DNA from: Bacteroidota bacterium
GTDB taxonomy: Bacteria; Bacteroidota; Bacteroidia; B-17B0; Aurantibacillaceae
Assembly: GCA_030684395.1 (NCBI GenBank)
Contig: JAUXTT010000040.1
Span: forward strand, 62,001 to 126,000
Reading direction: 5' to 3'
DNA length: 64,000 nt
The position numbers and the translations under genes were made by a program. Positions 21,083-23,720 of the stretch are shown piece after piece. The notes below the pieces were generated by a model. That model worked only from the letters and a program-made list of their open reading frames with translations, did not search any database and had not been told where the DNA came from. Position 1 is the stretch's first letter, and each line of letters begins with the position of its first letter.

Positions 21083-21123
21083 ATCCATGAAAATTGGAAA
21101 TGTAATTTTTAATTTTCATGGAT
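21083..21123. repeat. 41-bp palindrome, left copy flanking the DUF4143 gene
   Basis: Arms of 13 bases, ATCCATGAAAATT and its inverse, around a 15-base centre. It is identical to 22315-22355 except in 9 central bases. It overlaps the promoter of the ATPase gene. Confidence 0.85.
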
Positions 21124-21129
21124 TTGTTT

Positions 21130-21137
21130 TATATTTG
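21130..21137 (+). promoter_or_regulatory. -7 box (TATATTTG) of the DUF4143 gene
   Basis: A consensus TAnnTTTG box 4 bases before the chosen ATG at 21142. The predicted -33 region falls inside the left palindrome, so a protein bound there would affect transcription. The transcript would be nearly leaderless. Confidence 0.45.
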
Positions 21138-21141
21138 TGAC

Positions 21142-22311
21142 ATGATAAAACGAAGTATTGAAAAATCGTTGCAGTATAGTTTAAAGCACTTTCCGGTTGT
21201 AATCCTACTAGGGCCGAGGCAGGTTGGGAAAACTACACTGGCCAAACAACTTGCAAAATCTGTAAAGAAGGCAAGTTTGTATTTTGATATGGAGTTGAAC
21301 AGCGACTATGTGAAGTTTGATGACGCTGAATCTTTTTTACGTCAACATCAGGATAAATTGATCATCATTGATGAAGTGCAAAGAAGGCCCGAGTTGTTTG
21401 CCTTGTTAAGGGCTTTGGTAGATATTAAGAGGGTTCCGGCCCGTTTTATTTTGTTGGGATCTGCCAATCCTCAATTGGTTAAAGGAGTATCTGAAACATT
21501 GGCGGGAAGGGCACTTTACGCGGAGTTATCCGGAATTGGTTTGGATGAAATACCAAAATCTATTAGTCTTAAAAAGCACTGGACTCGTGGAGGTTTTCCG
21601 CAGAGTTTGTTGGCTAAAAATGAGTTGGTTTCACGCAACTGGCTTAATAGTTACATTACTTCTTATGTGGAGAAGGAACTGAATAATGCTTTTGGAATTG
21701 AATTTACCGCATCAGTAGTACGCCGTTTCTGGAGTATGCTGTCTGCTAATCATGGTGGTATTTGGAATGCATCCGATTATGCACGTTCCATGGCTGTTAG
21801 TCCTCCTACTGCCACACGTTATCTTGATTATCTGGAAGGGGCTTATCTGGTTCGAAAACTACAGCCGTTTTTTCCCAATGTAAGCAAACGTTTAGTGAAG
21901 GCCCCAAAAGTATACATCAGAGATAGTGGTTTATTGCATGCATTGTTGCGTATTGGAAATTATGATGATTTATACAATACCACCTTTTTTGGTTCATCCT
22001 GGGAAGGTTATGTGATCGAACAAATAAATAGTGCAAAACCCTCTTTTCTGGATTTGTATTATTACCGCACACATAACGGAGCAGAGGTTGATCTGGTACT
22101 TGTAAACGGTCACAAACCTGTTGCTACTGTGGAGATAAAAACCAGTCAAACAGCTAAGTTGAGTGTGGGTTACTATGAATCCACAAAGGATCTGCAAACC
22201 AAACATAACTTTGTAGTGTTTCCTGATGGGGATAGTTATTACAATTCAAGCAAGGTATTATTACTGAATTTGCAGGATTTTATTGCAAACCACCTTCCCA
22301 AACTCAAATAA
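21142..22311 (+). CDS. AAA family ATPase with DUF4143 domain
   Basis: The chosen start gives MIKRSIEKSLQ, the usual family N-terminus; an in-frame ATG at 21118 lies inside the palindrome and is less likely. The 389-residue protein has Walker A (GPRQVGKTT), Walker B (LIIIDEVQ), a sensor-like LLGSAN and the DUF4143 region, with a winged-helix-like segment (SPPTATRYLDYLEGAYLV) and a PD-(D/E)xK-like end (HNGAEVDLVLV then VEIKTS). The family is widespread and its role is not settled. It stands alone and is bracketed by matching palindromes, which suggests a self-contained mobile or self-regulating unit. Confidence 0.88.
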   Translation: MIKRSIEKSLQYSLKHFPVVILLGPRQVGKTTLAKQLAKSVKKASLYFDMELNSDYVKFDDAESFLRQHQDKLIIIDEVQRRPELFALLRALVDIKRVPARFILLGSANPQLVKGVSETLAGRALYAELSGIGLDEIPKSISLKKHWTRGGFPQSLLAKNELVSRNWLNSYITSYVEKELNNAFGIEFTASVVRRFWSMLSANHGGIWNASDYARSMAVSPPTATRYLDYLEGAYLVRKLQPFFPNVSKRLVKAPKVYIRDSGLLHALLRIGNYDDLYNTTFFGSSWEGYVIEQINSAKPSFLDLYYYRTHNGAEVDLVLVNGHKPVATVEIKTSQTAKLSVGYYESTKDLQTKHNFVVFPDGDSYYNSSKVLLLNLQDFIANHLPKLK

Positions 22312-22314
22312 AAA

Positions 22315-22355
22315 ATCCATGAAAATTAAAAATTATATTTTTAATTTTCATGGAT
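22315..22355. repeat. 41-bp palindrome, right copy flanking the DUF4143 gene
   Basis: A near-perfect palindrome with 19-base arms (ATCCATGAAAATTAAAAAT and inverse) around TAT. It starts 3 bases after the ATPase stop codon. It could also act as a terminator. The outer 13 and last 19 bases match the left copy exactly. Confidence 0.85.
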
Positions 22356-22445
22356 ATTAATCTCGATAATTTTTGAATCTTATGCCAATTGGATAACTGT
22401 TTAGTGCATTTTAATTGGACTATTACAGACATCGCATCGGTATTA

Positions 22446-23720
22446 TTATGAGATCATCTCAAACCCTGCATAAGGCACCAAAGCCTTAGGGATCTTAATT
22501 CCTTCCGGAGTTTGATTGTTTTCCAATATAGAAGCTAAGATGCGTGGGAATGCCAATGCGCTACCGTTTAAACTATGAGCCAATACTGTTTTACCATCAG
22601 CACCTTTAAAACGACATTTTAAACGATTTGTTTGGAAGCTTTCAAAGTTAGATACAGAGCTAACTTCTAACCAACGCTTTTGAGCCGTGCTATACACCTC
22701 CATATCGTACGTTAGGGCAGAAGCGAAGCTCATATCTCCTCCGCACAACTTAAGCGTTCTAAACGGCAATTCCAGGTCTTTTAAAAGAGATGCAACATAC
22801 TCACGCATATTCTCTAATATTCCGTATGATTTATCAGGATGCGCAATTTGTACGATCTCAACTTTATCAAACTGATGCAAACGATTTAAACCTCTTACAT
22901 CTTTACCGTAACTTCCTGCTTCTCTACGAAAACAAGGCGTGTAGCCACAATTCATTATTGGAAGATCACTTTCTTTCAAAATAACATCACGGTAAATATT
23001 AGTGATAGGAACCTCTGCAGTTGGGATCAGGTATAAATTGTCAACAGTACAATGGTACATCTGACCTTCCTTATCCGGTAATTGCCCTGTTCCAAAGCCA
23101 CTGTCTTCGTTCACCATTATTGGCGGTTGAACTTCCATGTAACCCATGGCAGTAGCTTTGTCTAAGAAAAAATTTTGCAATGCACGTTGTAATCTTGCTC
23201 CTTTTCCTTTGTAAACAGGGAATCCTGCACCGGTTAATTTCACGCCTAATTCAAAATCGATCAGGTCATATTTTGCAGCAAGTTCCCAATGAGGAATAGC
23301 GCCATCGTGAAGTGTAGGAATAGTGCCATGTTCGTAGATATTCAAATTGTCCTCAGGAGTTTTACCTGTTGGAACACTGATGTGCGGCAGGTTTGGAATC
23401 AGCACCAAAAGAGCATGAATTTCTTGTTCAATGGTTTTTAAATCATCGTCAAATGTTTTTTCTTTTCCTTTAAGATCAGCAGTCTTAGCTTTAATGCTTT
23501 CTGCTTCTTCTTTCTTTCCTGATTTCATTAACTCACCAATTTGTTTGGCAAGAGCATTTGCTTCTGCTTTTACATCATCGGTTTGTTTCTGAACTGCTCT
23601 GCGATTCGTATCCAGGTCAATCACTTTATTAATAATGGTTTCAGCGTCTTTAAAATTTTTGATCGCTAATCTTTTTAAAACATCTTCTTTGTTTTCACGG
23701 ATATAATTAAGTTGTAACAT
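22446..23720 (-). CDS. serS: serine--tRNA ligase
   Basis: The 424-residue protein has the N-terminal coiled-coil arm that binds tRNA (residues 1-110, heptad-like and charged), then the class II core with motif 2 (CFRREAGSYGKDVRG) and motif 3 (GSALAFPRIL). It charges tRNA-Ser, and also tRNA-Sec where present, in the cytoplasm. The gene stands alone between the DUF4143 unit and the rpmA terminator. No strong promoter box is seen upstream. Confidence 0.97.
   Translation of the reverse strand: MLQLNYIRENKEDVLKRLAIKNFKDAETIINKVIDLDTNRRAVQKQTDDVKAEANALAKQIGELMKSGKKEEAESIKAKTADLKGKEKTFDDDLKTIEQEIHALLVLIPNLPHISVPTGKTPEDNLNIYEHGTIPTLHDGAIPHWELAAKYDLIDFELGVKLTGAGFPVYKGKGARLQRALQNFFLDKATAMGYMEVQPPIMVNEDSGFGTGQLPDKEGQMYHCTVDNLYLIPTAEVPITNIYRDVILKESDLPIMNCGYTPCFRREAGSYGKDVRGLNRLHQFDKVEIVQIAHPDKSYGILENMREYVASLLKDLELPFRTLKLCGGDMSFASALTYDMEVYSTAQKRWLEVSSVSNFESFQTNRLKCRFKGADGKTVLAHSLNGSALAFPRILASILENNQTPEGIKIPKALVPYAGFEMIS

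Follow-up and report, generated by a model that had tools for sequence, protein, structure and literature searches.

A palindrome at the start of a PDC-S01 (AAA_14-DUF4143) gene as the probable recognition site of the ATPase-nuclease it encodes

PDC-S01 is reported to be the fourth most common defence candidate of prokaryotes, with about 39,500 copies, and, like most such candidates, it still awaits validation (PMC12988326). The protein analysed here, a clear member of this family (AAA_14, PF13173, plus DUF4143, PF13635), is encoded in a 64,000-nucleotide stretch of a Bacteroidota genome (contig JAUXTT010000040.1), referred to below as the window, and its gene is bracketed by two 41-bp palindromes. 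Parts of this arrangement are shared with several described systems. The archaeal Walker-type ATPases 2qen (PABY2304) and 2fna (SSO1545) and the STAND NTPases (Avs5, NLR) align with the ATPase and winged helix (residues 1-270), whereas the window protein has a PD-(D/E)XK nuclease after the winged helix. The PD-(D/E)XK nucleases McrC, NucS/EndoMS, Can2, and Hjc share the C-terminal fold and the catalytic residues corresponding to D317, E331, and K333, but the predicted site of the window protein is apparently confined to its own gene. RAYT-REP (repetitive extragenic palindrome) systems, or REPtrons, and IS200-IS605 elements also consist of a gene between palindromes to which the encoded protein probably binds; in contrast, the enzyme class here is different, the palindromes are not dispersed, and usually there is only one. 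Autoregulated repressors such as the C proteins of restriction-modification systems have a two-fold symmetric operator over their own promoter, but the putative operator described here is 37 bp long, is predicted to be read by a winged helix and a nuclease domain jointly, and belongs to an ATPase-nuclease. None of the papers searched describes a palindrome cognate to the PDC-S01 protein, an operator of fixed geometry, or a code that links residues to bases.

As the earlier note, made from the window alone, had described, a single DUF4143 gene lies between two near-identical palindromes (88% identity). Their 13-nt arms are identical, and all five differences fall inside the 9-base central stretch. 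The right palindrome begins 3 bp beyond the stop codon (22309-22311). The mechanically called open reading frame starts at 21118, inside the left palindrome, but relatives align at the ATG at 21142, which we therefore regard as the real start, 18 bp past that palindrome. Between the left palindrome and this ATG stands TATATTTG, an instance of TAnnTTTG, which we take to be the Bacteroidota -7 promoter box. This motif occurs within 30 nt of the ATG in 14 of 18 relatives from the same order, compared with 15 of 702 background windows, and its distance to the ATG is mostly about 4 nt, as at the window gene. The left palindrome covers the promoter region just upstream of TATATTTG, the -33 side included.

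The evidence throughout is comparative, and rests largely on 110 relatives chosen by similarity to the window protein, a set that hardly covers distant DUF4143 subfamilies. A sequence-blind scan found a 37/38-bp palindrome upstream of 63 of these 110 genes, against 1 in shuffled sequence, and a downstream palindrome in 17; a stricter motif was present upstream of 48 of the 110 family genes and in 3 of 184 control regions. The length of the site is nearly fixed (37 bp in 34 and 38 bp in 7 of 42). Within the flanks examined, 50 of 61 loci have the upstream palindrome alone and 11, mostly from the window's order, have a downstream copy; more than one upstream copy was present in 10 of the 61. In plasmid-borne alphaproteobacterial relatives the site mostly ends 1-2 bp ahead of the ATG. 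A cognate 37-38-bp palindrome directly upstream can be regarded as a feature of the family in Bacteroidota and Proteobacteria, and weakly so in Thermus, and since most loci have the upstream copy only, the two-sided bracketing seen in the window is a special form of this general arrangement. Tandem arrays of 2-4 palindromes, spaced by about 53 bp and interspersed with additional inverted half-sites, were observed upstream of three loci (L057, L060, and L061), and at L057 downstream too.

The palindromes are closely tied to the gene. In the 4.87-Mb genome to which the window belongs, the exact palindrome occurs in two places only, both at the window gene, and other DUF4143 genes of this genome have palindromes of their own, with matching copies on both sides at four loci (L001, L004, L006, and L007); flanking palindromes at further DUF4143 genes, a point raised by the earlier note, were thus found. 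The generic pattern CCNTGNAAWT...AWTTNCANGG matched 14 sites in 87 genomes of the order, comprising 4 asymmetric chance matches and 10 genuine palindromes, all of which stand at the ends of DUF4143 genes. Among 84,980 species genomes, the exact arms were found at 14 loci, in Gammaproteobacteria, Bacteroidota, and one Desulfosporosinus, and in 12 of these a DUF4143 gene, or a remnant truncated to its 5' part, has the arms at its 5' end. The arms are identical across phyla while the compared proteins share only about 38-60% identity. On sequence grounds, a chance origin of the palindromes is excluded. Six exact-class palindromes appeared solitary, four of which are explained by a truncated gene (L016, L023, L028) or by a gene running off the contig (L021). 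The three truncated loci (L016:1059-1168, L023:1832-2037, L028:3536-3674) consist of the palindrome and the first 20-60 codons only, that is, 3'-truncated remnants, and it seems common for the gene body to be lost while the site stays. The remaining two palindromes (L026:3875-3913 and L029:2048-2084) have no recognisable DUF4143 gene nearby and may be scars or independent sites. A scan of viral contigs gave no match to the palindrome, phage records contained nine weak relatives and no more, and none was found in the E. coli genomes searched.

Strong evidence connecting the palindrome with the protein comes from covariation between the two. With each half-site numbered as CC-N3-TG-N6-AAAT, base N3 covaries within a palindrome, matching its own arm at 0.93 compared with 0.28 across loci. 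In 47 loci, residue 312 carries the full information on N3 (1.86 of 1.86 bits), far above the next protein column, and in 73 loci it is again the top column for position 3 (1.88 of 1.88 bits, z 8.1). In these loci the top column is residue 311 for position 6 (z 4.7) and, at z 3.6-4.4, residue 221 for position 12 and residue 222 for both position 13 and position 14. Asn or Gln at residue 312 goes with A in 21 of 21 loci, His with G (9 loci), Asp with C (7 loci), and Ala, Val, Gly, or Ser with T (11 loci, one with T in one half-site only). These pairings agree with known amino acid-base chemistry. Both window palindromes carry A at N3 and at N6, matching N312 and H311.

When the register was chosen blind to sequence, the code was obeyed upstream by 54 of 62 palindromes and downstream by 16 of 17; several of the misfits plainly come from a wrong palindrome or register, and three appear genuine. 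After mis-registered picks had been taken out by hand, and with the register adjusted by hand for a few loci, 62 of 65 loci (about 95%) follow it. On a tree built without the residue-312 loop, base and residue class each change 18 times, and the nine well-supported independent pairs for A all change in the same direction, none in the opposite one. At one orthologous site, two loci with His (L084, L088) have G and a third with Gln (L085) has A, with all palindromes of each locus in agreement. Outside Bacteroidota, the code was tested on plasmid loci and a few gammaproteobacterial contigs; of 12 plasmid loci fetched afterwards, 11 obeyed it in both half-sites and one in a single half-site. Two distant DUF4143 paralogues were also inspected. 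One from the window's own genome (L009, contig C26; 28% identity) has a palindrome (TCCGATAATTTTC...) some 96 bp upstream, and the C at N3 is the base that the code assigns to its Asp at residue 312; the other (L001) shows no obvious fit.

Pfam finds in the window protein AAA_14 and DUF4143 (139 bits) and no further domain, and its best PADLOC match is PDC-S01 (E 2.7e-86), with the hidden Markov model covering most of the protein. A search of PDB sequences yielded no useful relative. An AlphaFold2 model built with 10 family members (predicted local distance difference test score of 89) contains an ATPase, a winged helix, and a nuclease core of alpha-beta-beta-beta-alpha-beta topology that carries E315, D317, E331, and K333, in line with the nuclease-like D and E-x-K residues that the earlier note had pointed out in the C-terminal part. 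Residues 1-270 match 2qen and 2fna (Z 16.7 and 16.3 over about 247 residues) and also STAND proteins such as Avs5 and NLRs, and the C-terminal domain matches the PD-(D/E)XK nucleases McrC, NucS, and Can2 (Z about 8). K30, D77, E78, R123, E315, and D317 do not vary among the 110 proteins, and E331 and K333 hardly do. The model thus has, in order, a STAND-like ATPase, a winged helix, and a PD-(D/E)XK nuclease whose catalytic residues are intact (Table 1). Residues 221/222 stand at the start of the predicted recognition helix, and residue 312 lies in the loop ahead of E315/D317, three residues before E315; the base that it would read should therefore be near the catalytic centre.

Table 1. Features of the PDC-S01 locus in window coordinates; domains and residue roles are predicted
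Feature	Position	Strand	Remarks
Left (upstream) palindrome, 41 bp	21083-21123	.	37-bp core CCATGAAAATT...AATTTTCATGG at 21085-21121; N3 = A
TATATTTG, presumed Bacteroidota -7 promoter box (TAnnTTTG)	21130-21137	+	ends 4 nt before the ATG
AAA_14-DUF4143 gene (PDC-S01)	21142-22311	+	389 aa plus stop; start MIKRSIEKS
AAA/STAND-like ATPase domain	21142-21591	+	residues ~1-150
Winged helix-turn-helix	21709-21918	+	residues ~190-259; recognition helix 221-233
Residues 221/222	codons 21802-21807	+	vary together with bases 12-14 of the palindrome
PD-(D/E)XK nuclease domain	21925-22308	+	residues ~262-389
H311-N312, specificity residues	codons 22072-22077	+	N312 predicts N3 = A; H311 goes with N6 = A
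Catalytic residues	E315 (22084), D317 (22090), E331 (22132), K333 (22138)	+	nuclease domain
Right (downstream) palindrome, 41 bp	22315-22355	.	core 22317-22353; N3 = A

We favour, with a probability of about 0.7, the reading that the palindrome is a private, sequence-specific recognition site of the protein encoded by the adjacent gene, with the upstream copy acting as operator. The site, its position, its exclusivity to the gene, and the residue-base covariation are features of the sequences themselves. Because residues 312, 311, and 221/222 covary with its bases, the protein very probably reads its own palindrome, and because this palindrome lies over the promoter or directly against the start codon, autoregulation is its most likely role; a symmetric cognate site that overlaps the gene's own promoter or start is shared with autoregulated operator-repressors. 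The earlier note had suggested a protein that recognises the palindrome and regulates itself: recognition is now strongly supported, by covariation and by the fixed place of the site on the promoter or start codon, and regulation is what we infer from that place. In the mechanism we propose, a dimer (or higher oligomer) of the ATPase-nuclease would sit on the two-fold symmetric 37-bp site, with residues 311/312 of the nuclease loop contacting the outer bases N6/N3 of each half-site and residues 221/222 of the winged-helix recognition helix contacting the inner bases 12-14. A dimer with the winged helices inside and the nuclease domains outside would fit the order of the covarying positions. 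Binding at the upstream site, over the promoter in Bacteroidota or against the start codon in Proteobacteria, would most likely repress the gene until the ATPase is triggered and the nuclease presumably comes into play. In the window's lineage, a second palindrome at the 3' end completes the bracketing, and gene and palindromes are gained and lost as one block.

Several points weigh against this reading. Three of the 65 loci break the code (R-T, D-A, and T-A); 10 of the 12 plasmid-locus predictions are T, which means that this set tests few letters, and one A site among them is weak (L263); and positions 6 and 12-14 are only partly determined by protein residues. The self-complementary, variable inner part of the palindrome also fits a hairpin or cruciform. 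Furthermore, pure autoregulation does not need near-invariant catalytic residues, nor does simple autorepression need a downstream copy. Given the near-invariance of the catalytic residues, cutting probably matters too, whether for mobility, for defence, or for both.

A role in defence against phages or plasmids, or in competition between elements, is a tentative proposal that is compatible with the recognition site, and our confidence in the one does not exclude the other. A STAND-like sensor ATPase would, once activated, unleash DNA cleavage, with the palindrome keeping the protein off until then; targets could perhaps be rival copies with the same palindrome. The PADLOC assignment to PDC-S01, an unvalidated phage-defence candidate (PMC12988326), points this way, as do the likeness of residues 1-270 to 2qen/2fna, Avs5, and NLRs and that of the nuclease fold to McrC, NucS, and Can2. 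However, the activity label comes from guilt by association only, and the recognised site was found only at the gene itself, hence no foreign target is evident. At two loci (L017:800-3743 and L295:1-1692), palindrome-bearing DUF4143 genes stand beside or inside cas-like operons with neighbours that resemble cas4/cas1 by eye, a neighbourhood that could by itself yield such a label.

The earlier note's other suggestion, a mobile element with palindromes as its ends, bears on the gain and loss of the unit formed by gene and palindromes (the neighbouring genes alaS, holA, mcm, and cas were named by reading their translations). Three species of one genus (g112) carry the unit between alaS and a gene for an M23 peptidase (gap of 1391-1574 bp), and in eleven other species with both flanks adjacent (74-194 bp) there is neither unit nor palindrome. 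At a second site, behind the methylmalonyl-CoA mutase gene, two species carry the unit and the others examined have neither. Since the empty orthologous sites hold no palindrome, gene and palindromes come and go together; for the same reason the idea that the palindrome is a pre-existing target site was rejected. The palindrome is not widespread without the gene. Units of one type, with proteins 76-82% identical, are found in three genera at unrelated places that share no flanking genes, and the overall distribution is patchy (14 of 87 genomes of the order). In a sister species (G001), the two neighbours of the window gene are present without the gene, but the intergenic region is about 1 kb long, and this is not a precise empty site. 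In two otherwise empty alaS sites (L099 and L101, from genomes G277 and G268), two related GC-richer inserts (GCGTGAGGGATGCGAGCG...) were observed, which suggests another small mobile or repeat sequence.

From these observations one could imagine a self-mobilising element in which the nuclease, with N3 read three residues from catalytic E315, cuts the outer half-sites of both palindromes under the control of the ATPase, and the excised 1.3-kb unit is pasted by host repair or some unknown partner. Besides the filled and empty sites, the unrelated locations in three genera, and the patchy distribution, the restriction of the sites to the gene's ends and the near-invariant catalytic residues would suit it. 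Yet 50 of 61 loci lack a downstream copy in the flank examined, no target duplication was seen by eye at the filled/empty junctions examined, where divergence of the flanks blurs the comparison, and about 80-100 bp outside the upstream palindrome of the filled second site also differ from the empty sites. Moreover, no identical or near-identical multicopy families were seen, the units are vertically inherited within a genus, and the Pfam domains include no DDE, HUH, serine or tyrosine recombinase and no strand-transfer domain. Ordinary gene gain and loss would equally produce empty sites and different insertion sites. Self-mobility is thus possible, and we consider it improbable in the form just outlined. 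We are equally doubtful of its extension to the whole family, by which DUF4143/PDC-S01 proteins would be the recognition and cleavage enzymes of unrecognised one-gene mobile elements of about 1.3 kb, with palindromic ends private to each lineage and read through a one-residue code, and many "defence candidates" would be selfish.

Two further explanations fare worse. If the palindromes were terminators or hairpins that stabilise mRNA, unconnected with the protein, this would account for the right one, which lies next to the stop codon and could fold into a long hairpin, but the left one lies upstream of the promoter box, and the arms stay identical across phyla while the proteins diverge; as a sole explanation this is refuted by the covariation of position 3 with a protein residue, and position also argues against it, leaving very little probability. 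Least credible of all is a REPtron, in which a domesticated transposase is flanked by palindromes that it spreads, since, although a lone gene between two matching palindromes resembles one, Pfam shows no HUH/Y1 domain in the protein, and REPs are dispersed in high copy (PMC2817692), whereas no dispersed copy was found here and the palindromes are confined to gene ends in the genome itself and in the 87 genomes of the order, which led us to reject a dispersed repeat. An unrelated short dispersed repeat does lie nearby: 65 bp of the sequence that separates the right palindrome from the end of serS (22382-22447) recur, at about 80% identity, in at least four dispersed copies in a different genome of the class (G485; L291-L294).

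For the PDC-S01 family, which had no known DNA target, the palindrome as a recognition site would supply one that can be read from sequence. Each gene carries its own putative site, and one residue of the protein predicts one base of it, which opens binding, specificity swaps, cleavage, and autoregulation to direct tests and makes it possible to answer whether PDC-S01 genes serve defence or are selfish. The code further illustrates how a nuclease loop, predicted to lie next to the active site, can acquire new specificity by single substitutions in step with its site.
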